Below the pieces are notes generated by a model. It saw nothing but the letters and a program-made list of their open reading frames with translations, did no database searches and was not told where the DNA came from. This document shows, one piece after another, positions 26,394 to 34,058 of a DNA stretch of 35,694 nucleotides. The stretch covers positions 1 through 35,694 of the forward strand of contig JAAYEG010000043.1 of NCBI GenBank assembly GCA_012728895.1, written 5' to 3'. The DNA is from Methanospirillum sp. GTDB lineage: Archaea > Halobacteriota > Methanomicrobia > Methanomicrobiales > Methanospirillaceae. How positions within the stretch are numbered: position 1 is the first letter of the stretch; the number at the start of each line of letters is the position of its first letter. The position numbers and the translations under genes are program-made.

Positions 26394-27440
26394 ATGGATA
26401 TCAGGGAGACCTTCTGCCCGCGGTGCGGCGGACCAGCGGGCGATGGTTCCGACGGCCTGTGCGGGAGATGCCGGCTCGCCGAGACGCGGTGGCTCGAGTG
26501 CGAGACCCGCGCAGTCCATACCTACTGCCCGAGCTGCGGCGCGTGGAGGTCCGGCCGGGTCTGGACGGATTCGGACAGGGGACGGGACGAGGTCGGCCCG
26601 GGACTCGCGCTCTCGGCGCTCCGCCTCCACCCCGAGGTTCGCCTCCCCAGGTTCGAGGTCTCGATTCGCGAACTCTCAACCAACCGGTCCACTGCCAACA
26701 TCAAGGTCTGGGGCACCCTCTATGGGGAACAGGTCAGCGGAGACTGCCGTGTCGAGCTGGTCTGGCAGAAAGAGCAGTGCGACCGCTGTAACCGCATCGC
26801 CGGGTCGTACTTCGAGGGGTACGTCCAGATCCGCGCGAGTGGCAGGGCGCTCACCAGCCGCGAGCTCCAGTCCGCCGCCCGGATCGCGCACGAGACCGAA
26901 TGCGCGTCGCAGGCAGAGGGCGACCGGCTCAGCTACGTCTCCGACCTGAGAGAGACGCGGGAAGGGCTCGACATCGTGATCGGGTCGCAGGCGATCGGGC
27001 TTTCGATCGCTCAGGCGGTCGCGCAGCAGCTGGGTGGACGGGTTTCCACCCATCCGAAACTGGTCGGCGAGAAGGCGGGACGATCCCTCTATCGGGTCAC
27101 GTATCTCGTCAGGCTCCACCAGTTCGTTCGCGACGACGTGATCGCGGTCGGCAGCGCGGACCTGATGATCGCCTCGTCCGAGGGCGACCATGTACGGGCG
27201 GTCGACCTATCAACAGGCAAGTCAAGGACTGTCCGGGACGAGGTGCCGAAGAGACTGATCGGGCATGGCTCGGACGCTGTAGAGGCGCTCGTGGCGTACC
27301 TCGACGGCGGAGTGATGGGGATGATCGACCCCGAGTCGAGCCGCTCGATCGAGGTGCCGCACCCGCCCTGGCTGAAGATAGCGGCTGGGGATCGAGTGAG
27401 GGTCCTCCGCGACCGGGACCGGCTGGTCGTCCTGGGGTGA
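26394..27440 (+). CDS. nmd3: Nmd3 family ribosome-export/assembly factor
   Basis: A 348-residue archaeal Nmd3 homologue. The N-terminus carries zinc-binding pairs: FCPRCGG, LCGRCRL, TYCPSCGAW and, further on, EQCDRCNRI, as in eukaryotic NMD3. The middle part (ELQSAARIAHETECASQAEG and on) and the C-terminal beta domain (YLVRLHQFVRDDVIAVGSAD) follow the family. In eukaryotes NMD3 joins the 60S subunit; in archaea it is thought to act on the large subunit. Its ATG follows the DUF424 stop by one nucleotide; its stop TGA overlaps an in-frame GTG of the next gene. Confidence 0.9.
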   Translation: MDIRETFCPRCGGPAGDGSDGLCGRCRLAETRWLECETRAVHTYCPSCGAWRSGRVWTDSDRGRDEVGPGLALSALRLHPEVRLPRFEVSIRELSTNRSTANIKVWGTLYGEQVSGDCRVELVWQKEQCDRCNRIAGSYFEGYVQIRASGRALTSRELQSAARIAHETECASQAEGDRLSYVSDLRETREGLDIVIGSQAIGLSIAQAVAQQLGGRVSTHPKLVGEKAGRSLYRVTYLVRLHQFVRDDVIAVGSADLMIASSEGDHVRAVDLSTGKSRTVRDEVPKRLIGHGSDAVEALVAYLDGGVMGMIDPESSRSIEVPHPPWLKIAAGDRVRVLRDRDRLVVLG

Positions 27441-27445
27441 GGCAC

Positions 27446-28327
27446 GTGCTGACCAGGCGGTGTCCGGTCGAGTCCCTCGCGGCGTGCGCCGGTGAGGACT
27501 GGGTCGATCCTTCGCGTCGTCCCTTCGTAGAGGGCGACACGGCCTGGATTCCGGTCCGTGACGGATACGAATTTGACGAGGTTCTCCCCGCACGCACCCG
27601 CCGGGACGGAAGAGGATACCAGCGTCTCGGCGATCTGGTGCTCTTCCACGGGCCCGAGCCGGACGCCGCGTCAATCCGCGAGGCGGTCGCCCGATGCTCC
27701 CCGCGCGGAGTCCTCTGGATTCGGGGACACGCGGGCGCCGAGCGGCTGCCCGAAGTCAACGTGATCGCCGGGGAGGGCGGCGAGACTGTCTGTCGCGAGG
27801 ACGGCCTCGCATACCGGCTCGATCCCGAGCGGGTGATGTTCTCCCAGGGGAACCGGAACGAGAAGCGCCGGCTCGCCGCCCTCGTCCGGCCCGGTGAGCG
27901 GCTCGGCGACCTCTTCGCCGGGATCGGTTATTTTTCCCTTCCGGCCGCCCGCGCTGGTGCACACATCCACGCGATGGAGCTGAACCCGACGGCGTTCGCG
28001 TTCCTGGAAAAGAACATCGCCTTGAATGGGCTCGCGGACCGGGTAAATGCCTCGTACGGCGACTGCCGTGACCTACTCTCGGGGACATACGACCGGCTCG
28101 TGCTCGGTCATTTCGACTCGCCAGCCTTCCTCGAGGTCGCCCTCGCCCACGTCAGGGCGGGGACCGTGATTCACCTGCACGCGCTCGAGCGGACTCCAGG
28201 AGAGCTCTCCCCCTCCCTCGATGCGACGGTGACCAGCTGCGGTTACGCGATAGCCTCATCGGTCCGGCGGGTCAAGAAGTACGCGCCCGGCCGGAGCCAT
28301 ACTGTCCACGACCTGGTGATCCAATGA
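27446..28327 (+). CDS. taw2: Trm5/Tyw2-family tRNA enzyme, Taw2-like
   Basis: A 293-residue class I SAM-fold enzyme. LGDLFAGIGYFSLPAA carries the SAM-binding glycines, AMELNPTAFAFLEKNIALNG the acidic residue, then YGDCRDLL. The next motif reads YDRLVLGHFDSPAFL: Trm5 has an Asn-Pro pair at the Gly position, whereas Tyw2/Taw2 have Gly there, so a 3-amino-3-carboxypropyl transferase making wyosine-type bases at tRNA-Phe position 37 is favoured. FSQGNRNEKRRLA precedes the Rossmann part, as in the family. GTG 27446 or GTG 27437 (overlapping the nmd3 stop) can start it. Its stop overlaps coaBC by ATGA. Confidence 0.8.
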   Translation: MLTRRCPVESLAACAGEDWVDPSRRPFVEGDTAWIPVRDGYEFDEVLPARTRRDGRGYQRLGDLVLFHGPEPDAASIREAVARCSPRGVLWIRGHAGAERLPEVNVIAGEGGETVCREDGLAYRLDPERVMFSQGNRNEKRRLAALVRPGERLGDLFAGIGYFSLPAARAGAHIHAMELNPTAFAFLEKNIALNGLADRVNASYGDCRDLLSGTYDRLVLGHFDSPAFLEVALAHVRAGTVIHLHALERTPGELSPSLDATVTSCGYAIASSVRRVKKYAPGRSHTVHDLVIQ

Positions 28328-29460
28328 CCCATACCACTCTTGAAGGAAAAGAGATCGTGCTGGCCGTCACCGGTTCCATAGCGGCCGTTGAGACGGTGAA
28401 GCTCGCTCACGAACTCCGCCGCCGCGGGGCCGGTGTCCAGGCTGTCATGTCTGAGGCGGCAGCGCGTATCGTGCACCCCGACGCGCTCACTTACGCGACC
28501 GGCCGGCCAGCGATCACGGCCCTCTCTGGCCTCGTCGAGCACGTCCAATGGTGCGGGATCGGGGGGAAGGCAGATCTGCTCCTGGTCGCGCCCTGCACCG
28601 CGAACACCATAGGCAAGATCGCATGCGGGATCGACGATACCCCGGTCACCACCTTCGCCACGACCGCGCTCGGAAGCGGGAAGCCGGTCGTGGCCGTGCC
28701 CGCCATGCACGAGACGATGTACCATCACAGGACGGTAGCCGAGAACCTGGAGCGGCTGAGCACGCTCGGCGTCACCGTGCTGAAGCCGCGAATCGAGGAG
28801 GGGCGGGCCAAGATCGCCGAGATGGAGGTGATCGTGCTCGAATCCGAGCGGGCGGTGAACGAGAAGCCCCTCACGGGTCGCCGGGTGCTGATCACGAGCG
28901 GCCCCTGCCGCGAGCCGGTCGACGACGTCCGGGTGCTGACGACGCGCTCTACTGGTAAGATGGGCCGGGCGCTCGCGCTCGAAGCATATCGCCGGGGGGC
29001 CGAGGTGACGGTGGTCCACGCCGATATCTTCCCCTGCGTCCGTAACGTGCGGTGTTCTTCGGCTCGAGAACTCCACGATGCGGTCCTTGCGATCGGCGAG
29101 AGAGAGGGGATGGACATCTACGTCTCTGTCGCCGCCATCTCAGACTTCGTGCCTCCCCGGTTCCAGGGCAAGCTCCCGAGCGGAGAGCCCGTCACCCTCA
29201 CGCTCGACCCGCTGCCGAAGGTGATCGACGATGTGATCGCCCGGTACCGACCCCACGCGATCGCATTCAAGCTCGCCAGCGATGCCGATGCACAGGCGCG
29301 CACGCTGCTCGAACGTGGTGCGGCCCTCGTGGTTGCCAACACACCCGAGACGATGGGAGCGGATGGGGGGATGTTCGCCCTCCACTCGGCCAAAGGCATA
29401 CGGATGGTGGAAGGTAGCAAAGAGGAGGTGGCCGCTGCGATATGGTCGAGCGTTCCATAG
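28324..29460 (+). CDS. coaBC: Phosphopantothenoylcysteine synthetase/decarboxylase
   Basis: A 378-residue bifunctional enzyme of coenzyme A synthesis. The N-terminal CoaC flavoprotein domain (about 1-180) begins KEIVLAVTGSIAAVETVKLA and contains VEHVQWCGIGGKADLLLVAP and NTIGKIACGIDDTPVTT, the archaeal version of the active-site helix. The C-terminal CoaB domain (about 185-378) has RRVLITSGPCREPVDDVR, TRSTGKMGRALALEA and VSVAAISDFVP, with the nucleotide and substrate sites intact. It overlaps taw2 by ATGA, and pantoate kinase begins 19 nt before its stop, so CoA genes form one coupled set. Confidence 0.94.
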   Translation: MTHTTLEGKEIVLAVTGSIAAVETVKLAHELRRRGAGVQAVMSEAAARIVHPDALTYATGRPAITALSGLVEHVQWCGIGGKADLLLVAPCTANTIGKIACGIDDTPVTTFATTALGSGKPVVAVPAMHETMYHHRTVAENLERLSTLGVTVLKPRIEEGRAKIAEMEVIVLESERAVNEKPLTGRRVLITSGPCREPVDDVRVLTTRSTGKMGRALALEAYRRGAEVTVVHADIFPCVRNVRCSSARELHDAVLAIGEREGMDIYVSVAAISDFVPPRFQGKLPSGEPVTLTLDPLPKVIDDVIARYRPHAIAFKLASDADAQARTLLERGAALVVANTPETMGADGGMFALHSAKGIRMVEGSKEEVAAAIWSSVP

Positions 29461-30299
29461 CAAGGTCTCCCGGGCACATCTCGGGTTATTTTCGCCGGTG
29501 CGAAGGTCCGGACATAGCGAGCACGGGCTCAGTCGGAGGCGGGATCGTCATCGAGGAGGGGGTGACCGTTGTGGCCGTGCGCGCCCGAACACCATCGGTC
29601 CGGGTTATGGTCACCGCCCCGGGGGGGACGACGATCGTCCCGGGTGGATCTCCTTCGGTCGAATATCTGATGGAACAGCTCGGTGCCCCTGCGGCGCTCA
29701 CGACCCGGTGCTCCCTGCCGATCGGGGCCGGGTTCGGCCTCTCGGCCGCCGCGCTGCTCGGAACAGGTACAGCCCTCTCGGCACTATACGACCTGGGTCT
29801 CTCGCGGGACGAGATCGCAAGGGCCGCCCACGATGCCGAGGTCGTATACAGGACAGGGCTCGGCGACGTCGCCGCCGCCCAGGGCGGAGGAATCGCAATC
29901 AGGAGGGGGGCCGGCGTAAGAGCAAGGATCCTGCGTTTTCCGTCCGATATGCCTGTCTTCGCGGTCTCTTTCGGCCCCATCTCCACCCCGACGGTGTTGG
30001 ACTCCCCGGATACGATGGCCCGAGTTCGTGCAGCTTTTCCCGCGTCGGAGCCAGAGGGGCTAGAGCCGCTCCTCCAGGCATCCCGGGAGTTTGCCGAGCG
30101 GAGCGGGCTGGTGACCGAGCGTGTCCGGGCCGTCTTGGCGTCATGTGACGACGCAGGTGTCCCGGCCTCAATGACCATGCTCGGGGAAGGGGTCTTTGCC
30201 ATCGGGCCCGGAGCACGGCATGCCCTCTGCCGGTTCGGGCAGATCCACCAACTGACGGTCGCCCGCGAGGGCTTCCGTCTCCTGGAGGTGAGGCCGTGA
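29442..30299 (+). CDS. pok: Pantoate kinase (GHMP family)
   Basis: A 285-residue ATP-dependent kinase that phosphorylates pantoate, the archaeal replacement for bacterial pantothenate kinase chemistry. GHMP marks: SPGHISGYF near the N-terminus, SLPIGAGFGLSAAALLGTGT (about 89-108) as the ATP-binding Gly/Ala/Ser loop, and GLGDVAAAQGGGIAIR. The C-terminal part has MTMLGEGVFAIG, typical of the third GHMP motif. It overlaps coaBC and its stop overlaps the GTG start of the next gene, which encodes the following enzyme in the pathway. Confidence 0.9.
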   Translation: MVERSIARSPGHISGYFRRCEGPDIASTGSVGGGIVIEEGVTVVAVRARTPSVRVMVTAPGGTTIVPGGSPSVEYLMEQLGAPAALTTRCSLPIGAGFGLSAAALLGTGTALSALYDLGLSRDEIARAAHDAEVVYRTGLGDVAAAQGGGIAIRRGAGVRARILRFPSDMPVFAVSFGPISTPTVLDSPDTMARVRAAFPASEPEGLEPLLQASREFAERSGLVTERVRAVLASCDDAGVPASMTMLGEGVFAIGPGARHALCRFGQIHQLTVAREGFRLLEVRP

Positions 30300-31027
30300 T
30301 ACCCCCGGACCACCCGCGTTACCGGTCACTTCTGGTCCGCGAGCGGCTGTCCGCGTGCGCGCGCGAGGGGATCGTGGCGCTCGAGGGGCTCGCGGCCCAC
30401 GGGCGGGCCGAGGCCTTCGACTACCTGATCGGTGAAACGACGACGAATACCGCCCGCCTCGCAGCGCGGACGGCCGCAGCCCTGATTCTGCAAGCCAGCG
30501 CCCCCGTCCTCTCGGTTAACGGGAACACCGCTGCCCTCGCAGCGCGGGAATGCGCCGATCTCCAGGAGGTCACCGGGATCACGGTCGAGGTGAACCTCTT
30601 CCACCGGACCGAAGAACGGCTCGCGAAGATAACGGACCTCCTGGAGCGTCACGGGGTGCGGGTTCTCGGGGGAACGCCTGAGCGCCTGGTTCCCCTTTCA
30701 CACGACCGTGCACTCTGTCTTCCAGGGGGGATCGGTGCGGCTGATCTCGTGCTCGTTCCTCTCGAGGACGGGGACCGTTGTGCAGCCCTCCGTGCCATGG
30801 GAAAGACGGTCGTCACCATCGACCTGAACCCGCTCTCCCGCACAGCCCGCACCGCTAACCTGACGATCGTGGACGAGCTCACCCGTGCCCTCCCCCTCGT
30901 CTCCGAGGCGTATTCAGCGATGACCGTTGACGAGGCAGCAGCGCTTGCGGTGGGACTCGACAATCATTATCTGTTGCAGGCAGCTATAACTGAGATCATC
31001 CGGGGGCTCGAACGTGCTCTGGATTGA
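30296..31027 (+). CDS. pps: 4-phosphopantoate--beta-alanine ligase (archaeal phosphopantothenate synthetase, DUF137)
   Basis: A 243-residue enzyme joining 4-phosphopantoate with beta-alanine, the step after pantoate kinase in archaeal CoA synthesis. It begins HPRYRSLLVRERLSACAREG, then FDYLIGETTTNTARLAARTA, VLSVNGNTAALAARECADLQ and VEVNLFHRTEERLAKI, all family marks. VVTIDLNPLSRTARTANLTI precedes the VDELTRALPL segment. GTG 30296 is chosen: GGAGGTGAG at 30284-30292 is a strong ribosome-binding sequence 3-4 nt upstream, and it overlaps the pantoate kinase stop. The end overlaps the RFC gene by 14 nt. Confidence 0.92.
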   Translation: MIPPDHPRYRSLLVRERLSACAREGIVALEGLAAHGRAEAFDYLIGETTTNTARLAARTAAALILQASAPVLSVNGNTAALAARECADLQEVTGITVEVNLFHRTEERLAKITDLLERHGVRVLGGTPERLVPLSHDRALCLPGGIGAADLVLVPLEDGDRCAALRAMGKTVVTIDLNPLSRTARTANLTIVDELTRALPLVSEAYSAMTVDEAAALAVGLDNHYLLQAAITEIIRGLERALD

Positions 31028-32003
31028 AAAATACCGCCCCGGGGATTTTTCCGGTATCGTTGGCCAGGACAGGGCCATTGCGTTCCTTTCCTCTGTCGTC
31101 GGGCAGCAGACCATTCCGCACCTCCTGCTGACAGGGCCAGGTGGGTCGGGACGGATGTCGACCGTGCGCTGCCTAGCTGCCGCCCTCTACGGAGAGCATG
31201 CCGACGAGAACACGACCGTCATCGCAACCGGCGATCTGTTCAACGAGGGACGGGCATACCTCCAGGGAGATGCCCGGTTCAGCCACCTCTACCGGAAAGA
31301 CGAATCCCTGATTGCTAATGTGAAGCGTATCATCAAAACCTACGCCGCGATCCGCCCGTTCGACACCGGGTTCAAGCTGATGGTCTTCCAGGAAGCCGAC
31401 GCGATGCCGGGAGAGTTGCAACAGGCACTCCGACGGACGATGGAACGGTACTCACGGACCTGCCGGTTCATCATGATCACCTCGCGCCAGTCGGCAATCC
31501 TCCCCTCGATCGCGTCCCGCTGCTTCCCGGTGGTCTTCAGGCCTGTCCCGACCGGGACCGTTGCATCTCTGCTCAGGGAGATACTGAGGACCGAGGGAGC
31601 AGAACCGATCCCCGACGATGATCTCGCGATGATCGCCGCATCGGCCCGCGGCGACGTGCGCCGCGCGATCATGATGCTGGAGCTGACCGTATCCTCGGGA
31701 GCCCCGCCACCGTTCGACGCATTCGAGGTGAGCAGGGCAGAGAGGGGGGCTTCAGGCGTCCTCTCTAGGCTCCGTGAGGGGGATCTCGCGGGAGCACAGC
31801 GGCTCGCCCAGTCCCTGATGATCGAGGACGGGCTCACCGGACGCGATCTCCTGATCGAGCTCCGGAGGGCGGTCTGGCGAGGCGATGCCGATCCGGAGCT
31901 CGCCATCGCGATCGCGGAGACCGACTCACGGTTCGCACAGGGCGCCGGGGAATCCGTCCAGATCGGGGCTCTCCTCGCCCAGGTTCCGGAGGTGTGCCGG
32001 TGA
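31014..32003 (+). CDS. Replication factor C small-subunit-like protein with degenerate ATPase motifs
   Basis: A 329-residue AAA+ protein of the clamp-loader small-subunit family. It starts LWIEKYRPGDFSGIVGQD, as RfcS does, but Walker A reads GPGGSGRMS (41-49): the catalytic Lys is Arg47 and the following Thr is Met48. Walker B reads LMVFQEAD (122-129) with Gln126 in place of the first Asp of the DEAD-type box, and sensor 1 reads ITSRQS instead of the Asn-containing form. The arginine-finger SRC (168-170) and the GDVRRAIMMLEL segment are intact. This pattern suggests a non-hydrolysing subunit that supplies an arginine finger to its neighbour, comparable to RfcS2 of some methanogens or yeast Rfc5. 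GTG 31014 is the start. Confidence 0.85.
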   Translation: MLWIEKYRPGDFSGIVGQDRAIAFLSSVVGQQTIPHLLLTGPGGSGRMSTVRCLAAALYGEHADENTTVIATGDLFNEGRAYLQGDARFSHLYRKDESLIANVKRIIKTYAAIRPFDTGFKLMVFQEADAMPGELQQALRRTMERYSRTCRFIMITSRQSAILPSIASRCFPVVFRPVPTGTVASLLREILRTEGAEPIPDDDLAMIAASARGDVRRAIMMLELTVSSGAPPPFDAFEVSRAERGASGVLSRLREGDLAGAQRLAQSLMIEDGLTGRDLLIELRRAVWRGDADPELAIAIAETDSRFAQGAGESVQIGALLAQVPEVCR

Positions 32004-32725
32004 CCGAGAAGGTCCGCCGCCACTACGACGAGGTTGCGGAGATCTACGACCTCCGGTACGACAAGGGGGTTGGCCGCTCGTACCACGCACACATCTCAGA
32101 GCAGGTGATGGCCCGGCTCCCGCAGGGGGGCCGGCTGCTCGACATCGGCTGCGGCACCGGGCTCTTCGCCGAGCGCTACCGGCAGAGGGGCGGACGGGCC
32201 GTCGGGCTCGACCTCTCGCCAGGGATGATCGGGCGGGCGAGGAACCGGTTCGGGAACGCGGACTGGGTCGTCGGTTCAGGCGAGACCCTCCCGTTCCGGG
32301 AAGCGAGGTTCGACGCCGTTTCGAGCCTGCTCGCGTTCTCGTATTTCCATGATCCGGATAGGATGCTCGCCGAGAGTATCCGAGTGCTCCGTCCGGGTGG
32401 GAAGATCGCTCTCTGCACCCTCGGACGGAACTTTTTAACCGCGGGCCTGCCAGCACTCCACTCGCTCGGAGAGCTCGCCCGGGTGCGCCAGGTCGGCATG
32501 GGGAGTTTCGGTGAACACTACTACTCCGGAGCCCAGATGGCCGACCTGTTCCAACACGCAGGTTTTATCGACGTAAAAGTATCCCGGTGCTCGTTCGCCC
32601 ACCTGAACTTGGCGAGGCCGGTGTACGAGCTCGCGCGCAAGGTTGAGCCGCTCGTCGAGAGCAGGCTCCCGTACCTGGCGTTCAACCTCGTCGCGAGTGG
32701 CCGACGGCCCCACGACAGGCGGTAG
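32000..32725 (+). CDS. Class I SAM-dependent methyltransferase
   Basis: A 241-residue methyltransferase. It has EKVRRHYDEVAEIYDLRYD at the N-terminus, the SAM motif LDIGCGTGLFAERY, AVGLDLSPGMIGRARNRF with the ribose-binding Asp, the post-I segment VVGSGETLPFREARFDAVSS and the late LRPGGKIALCTLG. These are UbiE/Methyltransf_11 features; the substrate cannot be told. GTG 32000 is chosen over GTG 31994: GGAGGTG at 31988-31994 lies 5 nt upstream of 32000 but overlaps 31994, and 32000 overlaps the RFC stop (GTGA). It is the last gene of the plus-strand cluster and meets a convergent gene 4 nt later. Confidence 0.88.
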   Translation: MTEKVRRHYDEVAEIYDLRYDKGVGRSYHAHISEQVMARLPQGGRLLDIGCGTGLFAERYRQRGGRAVGLDLSPGMIGRARNRFGNADWVVGSGETLPFREARFDAVSSLLAFSYFHDPDRMLAESIRVLRPGGKIALCTLGRNFLTAGLPALHSLGELARVRQVGMGSFGEHYYSGAQMADLFQHAGFIDVKVSRCSFAHLNLARPVYELARKVEPLVESRLPYLAFNLVASGRRPHDRR

Positions 32726-32729
32726 CCCG

Positions 32730-34058
32730 TTATCGGTCTTCCATCGCGAGACGGGCCTTGATCCTTTCCTTCTTCTCGATCGCAGCGTTCGCCGCTGCTT
32801 CGACCCGGGCCTGCATGGCTGCGAAGTCTCCTCGCCTGGAATCGACAACCTTCTTGAGCGGGGTGTAGGCGGACTCGCGGAACCGGGGGGTGAAGTCATG
32901 CTCCTCGACGCCGGAGACGAGGATCGCAGAAGCGGGCCCCTCCTCGATCCGCCCGATCTCGGCGCAGCGGACGCCGGCAGAGTGGATGACCTCCTTGATC
33001 CCGCCGATGGCGTCCGGAGGCGCCCCGATCAGGAGCGAATCGAGCGATACGCCGAGCGGGTCGATCCCGAGAGCGTCGAGCATCTTTGCGACGACCGGGT
33101 CGACGAGCGGCAGGAACGCTTCCTCCTCGATCACGATCCGGCACCCGGCTGTTCCCGCCATTTCGTGCGCATCCCCGCGAAGCCCGCCGTTCGTCACGTC
33201 GGTCATCGCGTGGACCTTGTCCAGGACCGGGGACTCGATCAGCGCCCGGCAAGCATAAAGGAACTGGAGATTGATGGTCCGCTCCACGACCTCCGGGTGC
33301 CCTGAGTAGAGGGCGGCCGTCGCGATCGTACCACCGCCGGCTCCCTCGGTCATCAGCAGGACATCACCCGGCGAGAGGCTCTTCCGGGCAGTGATGTGTC
33401 GGGCCACCCCGACTGTTCCGACGCAACCTGTCATTCGAGGGCCCAGGACCATGTCACCGCCGATCCGGAGCGTCGAGCCAGCCACGAGTGGGACACCGAT
33501 CGAATCCCCGACGGCCGTCACCCCTGCGGTGTAATCGAAGAGCTTCGCGACGTCCCCGTCGTCCGCGACGTGGATATCCGAGAAGAGCAGGATAGGCGAG
33601 GCACCCATCACGTAGACATCGCGAAGTGTCGCCCTCGTCGCGTGAAACCCGGCGAGAAACGGGAAGTCGGAGAGGCGCGAGTGCATTCCATCGACCGAAC
33701 AGCAGACGTAGCGGTCGCCGATCGAGATCACGCCCCCATCGTCCATCTGATCGACCCCAACTGCGGCGGATGTCTCCCCGATGATCCGAGCTATCTGACG
33801 ATGGGCGAAGAAGTCCCCGGTCCCCCTCGAACCGACGCCGAACTCGCCCATCCCCACACCGGCTTCATGGGTTTTCAGCAGATCCCCTGAGAGATCGTGG
33901 GTGAGCAGAACTTCGTCGACAACCGCTCGGGCGAAATCGCCGGCATACGCATCATCGACTCCTTTGACCTGGCGAACGTGTTCGGCGAGCGAAGCCTCGA
34001 TCTTTTCGCGTTCCTGGCCTGAACGAACGCGCCGACGAACGAACTCCTCGACGTCCAT
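32730..34058 (-). CDS. AIR-synthase-related protein (HypE-like, COG1973 type)
   Basis: A 442-residue protein with an N-terminal helical extension (about 1-75) and the two-part AIR synthase/HypE fold. GVDQMDDGGVISIGDRYVC is the ATP-binding segment near residue 100, followed by the RATLRDVYVMGASPILLFSD segment, GGDMVLGPRMTGCVG, LLMTEGAGGGTIATA and MTDVTNGGLRGDAHEMA. Fold and ATP-binding segments match HypE, but the conserved C-terminal Cys that HypE uses for cyanide transfer is absent (it ends KARLAMEDR), so hydrogenase maturation is unlikely. Such proteins recur in methanogens with unknown role. It overlaps the flavoprotein by one base (TGATG) and is cotranscribed with it. Confidence 0.85.
   Translation of the reverse strand: MDVEEFVRRRVRSGQEREKIEASLAEHVRQVKGVDDAYAGDFARAVVDEVLLTHDLSGDLLKTHEAGVGMGEFGVGSRGTGDFFAHRQIARIIGETSAAVGVDQMDDGGVISIGDRYVCCSVDGMHSRLSDFPFLAGFHATRATLRDVYVMGASPILLFSDIHVADDGDVAKLFDYTAGVTAVGDSIGVPLVAGSTLRIGGDMVLGPRMTGCVGTVGVARHITARKSLSPGDVLLMTEGAGGGTIATAALYSGHPEVVERTINLQFLYACRALIESPVLDKVHAMTDVTNGGLRGDAHEMAGTAGCRIVIEEEAFLPLVDPVVAKMLDALGIDPLGVSLDSLLIGAPPDAIGGIKEVIHSAGVRCAEIGRIEEGPASAILVSGVEEHDFTPRFRESAYTPLKKVVDSRRGDFAAMQARVEAAANAAIEKKERIKARLAMEDR

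Follow-up and report, generated by a model that had tools for sequence, protein, structure and literature searches.

The window, the whole stretch of 35,694 nucleotides of Methanospirillum DNA analysed here, carries on its forward strand a run of overlapping genes that includes nt 31014–32003, an open reading frame of 329 residues with a GTG start. By its sequence the product is a clamp-loader protein of a Methanomicrobiales methanogen, its replication factor C small subunit 2 (RfcS2). The NCBIfam model of that name, NF009067, gives 328.9 bits, above the cut-off of 317, whereas the replication factor C small subunit model NF001679 gives just 194.3 bits, for a cut-off of 303. A preliminary description of this DNA had placed a clamp-loader small subunit at exactly this frame and had named a system of the RfcS1/RfcS2/RfcL type; the match to the curated RfcS2 model bears out both. 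The closest PDB relatives by sequence are the archaeal RfcS entries 2chq and 1iqp. In the tree the window protein falls inside the Methanomicrobiales RfcS2 clade (support 0.745), and the clade joining all RfcS2 against RfcS1 has a weak support of 0.22.

Gene neighbourhood

The overlapping genes encode CoaBC, pantoate kinase, phosphopantothenate synthetase (PPS), RfcS2 and a methyltransferase, all on the forward strand. The CoaBC gene (nt 28324–29460; TIGR00521, 306.3 bits, cut-off 219.7) overlaps by 19 nt with the gene for pantoate kinase of the GHMP type (nt 29442–30299; NF040725, 358.7 bits, below the cut-off of 380; PF00288), and the latter by 4 nt with the PPS gene (nt 30296–31027; NF041123, 308.6 bits, cut-off 300). 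The PPS gene overlaps the start of RfcS2 by 14 nt (nt 31014–31027), and the RfcS2 stop overlaps by 10 nt with the methyltransferase gene (nt 31994–32725; Pfam Methyltransf_11), which adjoins RfcS2 in many, not all, loci of the order.

Two further genes flank the run. Nt 32730–34058 on the reverse strand, next to the methyltransferase, encode an AIR-synthase-like protein (AIRS/AIRS_C) that scores below the ThiL, SelD and HypE cut-offs and adjoins many loci of the Methanomicrobiales. Nt 26394–27440, upstream of the CoA genes, encode a Cys-rich, zinc-finger-like protein; loci of the Methanocorpusculum and Methanocalculus types, as well as locus L036, also have it upstream of CoaBC.

The CoA-synthesis cluster noted in the preliminary description is present, but across the order this is where the gene usually lies. 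All 122 RfcS2 loci with at least 740 nt of upstream sequence have PPS there, on the same strand, a count in which some genomes appear twice, from two collections. The PPS–RfcS2 junction is a 14-nt overlap at 119 of these loci, a 1-nt overlap at two and a gap of 186 nt at one. The idea that the CoA neighbourhood is peculiar to the window gene was rejected on this count, and the neighbourhood is uninformative on the Walker changes described below. That the linkage extends through the order suggests that a clamp-loader subunit is translationally coupled to genes of CoA synthesis, although this could also be just a frozen operon. At loci outside the order (L130–L159, flanks of about 1.5 kb), BLAST with the window proteins gave no match to CoA proteins. 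A search of literature titles and abstracts found neither the PPS–RfcS2 overlap nor "replication factor C" together with the names of the CoA enzymes.

The ATP site of RfcS2

The motifs of the ATP site are recognizable and degenerate. Walker A, GPGGSGRM, residues 41–48 (nt 31134–31157), has R47 in place of Lys and M48 in place of Ser/Thr. Walker B, LMVFQEADA, residues 122–130 (nt 31377–31403), has Q126 in place of Asp. Sensor 1, FIMITSR, residues 152–158 (nt 31467–31487), carries S157 and lacks its Asn. The SRC box at residues 168–170 (nt 31515–31523) retains the arginine finger, R169. All of these residues had been read in the same way in the preliminary description, which made no mention of the retained Glu127 and Asp129 (xEAD, in 6/6 distinct sequences of the genus) or of the retained Arg216 of sensor 2, GDVR (nt 31650–31661; Arg216 in 6/6 of the genus). 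Glu127 is the catalytic acid of Walker B. An active subunit has GKT/S in Walker A, DE in Walker B and Asn in sensor 1; the window protein departs from this set at R47, M48, Q126 and S157. At the level of residues it combines a dead ATP site with an intact arginine finger, a pattern from which we infer that it does not hydrolyse ATP.

For comparison, RfcS2 sequences were drawn from three samples, namely 120 genomes of the order, 196 genomes of the phylum and 75 loci from named genomes, and part of the matches were fetched. In the order sample, 111 genomes have a match at E <= 1e-60 and nine have none. The phylum sample was searched with the NF009067 profile, with 108 above the cut-off; at least one of these, L184 (from G163), passes it only by summed pieces and is a canonical RfcS, and some RfcS2-like proteins, such as L173, score under it. 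Among the 75 named loci, 71 are RfcS2-like, from Methanomicrobiales or, in a few cases, from genomes labelled only "Euryarchaeota archaeon", and the other four (L102–L105) are canonical RfcS of other archaea. For residue counts, sequences identical over residues 1–199 were removed, the fragment L107 was left out, a few truncated frames were included, and two genus sequences that seem to recur between collections (L035 as L112, L036 as L111) were counted once. There are 158 distinct RfcS2 outside the genus: 104 from Methanomicrobiales, two groups of 9 and 27, and 18 from other families. The group of 27 looks haloarchaeal.

The Walker A Lys and the SRC Arg are each present in 158/158 RfcS2 outside the genus. 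The SRC Arg is found in every RfcS2 examined (164/164) and in 14/14 RfcS1 or single RfcS, in which the Walker A, Walker B, sensor-1 and SRC set is intact throughout. Asp126, Glu127 and Asn157 occur together in none of the 158, versus all 14 RfcS1 or single RfcS. Glu127 is present in 11 of the 158, and in 11 of the 104 other Methanomicrobiales; position 126 is acidic in all 104 (Glu in 80, Asp in 24). Since Lys47 is kept and the catalytic set is lost, RfcS2 as a kind looks nucleotide-binding but non-hydrolysing. Much of its decay, that at Walker B and sensor 1, is old and predates the genus.

Several other departures were seen among these sequences. Ala or Phe replaces Ser/Thr48 in L161, L164 and L176, all from other families and all with the lysine; in L176 both Mg2+ ligands are absent. 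One group (L152–L155, L160–L164) has SRG for SRC and no sensor-2 Arg in 9/9 members, and keeps Asp126 with Asn, Ser or Asp at the position of Glu127. RfcS2 is split over two frames in L101 (4001–4989, Methanogenium cariaci) and in L087 (4001–4953, Methanolinea Prado139), by sequencing error or a real frameshift. The RfcS2 matches in G145, G170, G213 and G273 have one TGA within the matched stretch, which may be the end of a frame, an error or recoding.

RfcS2 is also marked by an insertion. The Walker A–Walker B spacing is 76–96 residues in 164/164 RfcS2 versus 56–58 in 14 RfcS1/RfcS, and 78 in the window protein, where alignment places about 22 extra residues at positions 75–96 (nt 31236–31301). 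The extra stretch comes after the NASD strand and is common to RfcS2 of all sampled families; its use as a criterion for RfcS2 comes from the present analysis rather than from publication. A 2010 study (PMC2880001) left open whether RfcS2 had a single origin. The tree alone, with 0.22 for the joining clade, does not settle the question, and the shared insertion favours one origin.

The P-loop change in the genus

Arg47-Met48 is found in 6/6 distinct RfcS2 of the genus, which is represented by seven genomes, one of them (66% complete) with no RfcS2 match. Glu127 is likewise present in 6/6, and residue 126 varies among Q, S, L and I. The other genera of the same family have Lys47 with Ser or Thr48 in 83/83 fetched loci. 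These loci come from 90 other-genus genomes with a match and overlap in part with the 104 Methanomicrobiales; of the remaining seven genomes, six are within the sequences of the residue counts, and G301, whose match is in two pieces, was left out. Among positions at least 95% conserved in other Methanomicrobiales RfcS2, the start residue being set aside because of GTG starts and trimming, only K47 and F103 are missing from every sequence of the genus.

In an active site, Mg2+ is bound by positions 48 (Ser/Thr) and 126 (acid). Of the other RfcS2, 0/158 have lost both of these ligands together with the Walker A lysine. As degeneracy at Walker B and sensor 1 is already found in RfcS2 outside the genus, a point absent from the preliminary description, what is special here is the Walker A change, and the RfcS2 site is further decayed in this one genus than in the relatives examined. 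The genus has a stem branch of length 0.50 in the RfcS2 tree, with a support of 1.0. Its RfcS2 genes show dN/dS of 0.19–0.32 (15 genus pairs), and its RfcS1 genes 0.08–0.23 (10 pairs from five genus genomes). The genus RfcS2 is under purifying selection and is not decaying.

Already known are the RfcS1/RfcS2/RfcL system, the stoichiometry that it has in Methanosarcina and the length of the RfcS2 branch, and the Walker B degeneracy of RfcS2 has quite possibly been published. No literature title or abstract searched dealt with an RfcS2 that lacks the Walker A lysine, a search that did not take in the primary M. acetivorans RFC biochemistry (2005, 2009). Within the literature searched, what appears to be new is the genus-wide loss of this lysine and of the Mg2+ ligands against complete conservation of the lysine in the other RfcS2 examined.

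RfcS2 in the clamp loader

The preliminary description had predicted a second, active-type RfcS elsewhere in the genome, and had proposed a search for an RfcS with an intact P-loop, the absence of any other RfcS counting against it. The genome of the window is 2.28 Mb and 95% complete. Searched with RfcS2 as query, it yields a canonical RfcS1 on contig C71, with GPAGVGKT, LFLDEADA, SCNYSSKI and SRC, and an RfcL with intact Walker motifs on contig C42, so that the prediction holds and RfcS2 is not the only RfcS of this genome. RfcS1 is canonical in four more members of the genus too. The genome of the window has just three matches at E <= 1e-5. One RfcL-like frame was found, in what was a search for relatives of RfcS2 and not for other large subunits. 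A PCNA match is present on contig C56. A further weak match on contig C31 (E 3.8e-4) has no RfcS-like frame by eye and was taken as chance.

In M. acetivorans RfcS2 is part of the RFC, with RFC1:2:L at 3:1:1 (PMC3984812), and the literature puts RfcS2 at the terminal place in the Methanosarcina loader. In a clamp loader, the following subunit contributes the arginine finger that completes an ATP site; the E subunit of eukaryotic RFC is ATPase-incompetent, and in bacteria position E is held by delta-prime, which is without ATPase activity (PMC3331839). A dead ATP site with an intact finger, set beside these known E subunits, fits position E best. The loader of this organism would then be an asymmetric ring of RfcL, three RfcS1 and one RfcS2, with RfcS2 at the end, in position E. 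R169 of its SRC box would complete the ATP site of the adjacent RfcS1. Its own ATP site would face the gap of the ring, meet no arginine finger and hydrolyse no ATP. RfcS2 probably lost its canonical Walker B and sensor 1 long ago and retained a P-loop able to bind nucleotide, and in the genus the P-loop lysine, Ser/Thr48 and the acid at 126 are missing too. With the lysine and both Mg2+ ligands gone, the genus site probably binds no Mg-ATP, and the subunit would act as a scaffold only. We regard it as highly probable that RfcS2 here is a non-hydrolysing end subunit whose finger serves RfcS1 and which works as a scaffold, probably free of Mg-ATP. Each of its parts, namely position E in this organism, loss of hydrolysis and loss of nucleotide binding, is reached by such reasoning from residues and relatives.

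Structure prediction was considered as a further line of evidence for position E and dropped. Among the matches listed, the predicted RfcS2 monomer has an rmsd of 5.8–7.0 to E chains versus 8.3–10.8 to whole B, C and D chains, and its TM-score is also best to E chains, with Z tied (B 26.5 versus E 25.7). As a control, the same 39 sequences were used to fold L104, a canonical RfcS from Woesearchaeota, and its model fits E chains more closely still (rmsd 3.4–3.8); Foldseek with this model has no E chain among the best 50 matches listed. As the control failed to separate RfcS2 from canonical RfcS, the likeness to E chains is a habit of monomer prediction and no evidence for position E.

The P-loop change can hardly be a mis-assembly or sequencing error. 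The genus genomes are fragmented, in 50–350 contigs, but Arg-Met is found in 6/6 distinct sequences, the other five of which are 60–73% identical to the window copy, so that no accident of one assembly can explain it and this reading is refuted. Neutral loss in a dispensable paralogue is very improbable. The genus RfcS2 does evolve faster than RfcS1 (protein identity to the copy in the window genome is 60–73% versus 84–86%), and its stem branch is 0.50 long. Yet the frames are open with no internal stops, dN/dS stays at 0.19–0.32, 111/120 genomes of the order have a match at E <= 1e-60, the SRC arginine and positions of the QxALRRxME type are invariant, and all three rfc genes are reported as essential in Haloferax (PMC7776575); decay is largely refuted. 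The order-wide linkage to CoA genes, with the 14-nt overlap to PPS at 119/122 loci, might instead place RfcS2 in an alternative loader or unloader, or have it tie clamp loading to the CoA supply, outside the main replication loader. This seems unlikely, considering that the search with RfcS2 as query returned one RfcL-like frame in the genome, that RfcS2 of M. acetivorans belongs to its RFC (PMC3984812), and that an operon neighbour is weak evidence of function.

The site itself can be read in two ways. The lysine is kept in 158/158 other RfcS2. On one reading, which is perhaps a little less likely than not, this conservation implies that archaeal loaders need a bound, unhydrolysed nucleotide at position E; the genus would have made its position-E subunit wholly free of Mg-ATP and bypassed this need, once more turning an Rfc5-like subunit into one like delta-prime. 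One possibility is that a salt bridge from Arg47 to Glu127 or Asp129 takes the place of the nucleotide. On the other reading, a non-hydrolysing RfcS2 might, like yeast Rfc5, still hold a nucleotide at E for structural reasons, either ADP or an ATP that lacks proper Mg2+, with Arg47 in place of Lys as the phosphate contact. This is conceivable but less likely than not. The genus retains the glycines of the P-loop (41 and 46) along with Glu127, Asp129 and sensor-2 Arg216, which leaves some nucleotide binding possible; with Tyr7/Arg8 of the N-terminal box, these residues are present in 6/6, R47 and M48 are themselves invariant, and the yeast RFC-E site carries ADP (PMC8893722). Against it stands the joint loss of the lysine and both Mg2+ ligands, seen in 0/158 other RfcS2.

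Should the Mg-ATP-free reading be correct, the genus would be a natural experiment on the transition from an Rfc5-like to a delta-prime-like subunit, and its RfcS2 offers a direct test of the purpose of the nucleotide at position E. In bacteria and eukaryotes alike, the clamp-loader ring ends in a dead subunit, and archaea still show steps towards it: a single RfcS, then RfcS1/RfcS2 with the catalytic set lost and the lysine kept, then this genus, in which the lysine has gone as well. Since it is common to RfcS2 of every family sampled, the insertion also bears on the single-origin question as put in the 2010 study (PMC2880001).

Compared with euryarchaeal RfcS2 (NF009067; Methanosarcina acetivorans RFCS2), the window protein is alike in scoring above the model cut-off, in its insertion, in having RfcS1 and RfcL in the same genome, and in keeping the arginine finger with a degenerate Walker B and sensor 1. 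It is unlike them in the Arg-Met of the genus (6/6) for Walker A Lys-Ser/Thr, Lys being present in 158/158 others. The other Methanomicrobiales RfcS2 differ further in their acid at 126 (104/104, versus Q/S/L/I in the genus) and in Glu127 (11/104, versus kept).

The insertion was considered as a counterpart of the eukaryotic E-plug and this was rejected: it is predicted to be helical with a loop, and there is at most an analogy. Compared with the E-plug of yeast Rfc5, it presumably also has another place along the chain. Yeast Rfc5 is ATPase-incompetent and occupies position E (PMC3331839), a place that the window protein would hold. A yeast RFC5 peptide in the cross-link table of PMC8893722, CVIINEANSLTK, is taken as its Walker B; it would have Asn in place of Asp but retain Glu, as xEAD does here. 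Similarity is low, with 19–24% identity in the structural alignments to E chains. The yeast RFC-E subunit differs in binding ADP and in that its E-plug is a beta-hairpin (PMC8893722). Bacterial delta-prime (HolB) is similar in being present in one copy, at position E, without ATPase activity (PMC3331839); the holB model TIGR00678 gives 57.8 bits on the window protein, far under its cut-off of 180.6. The window protein is not a member of the delta-prime family and is at most its functional counterpart. On the best reading, the window RfcS2 resembles delta-prime and Rfc5, one decay step further on.
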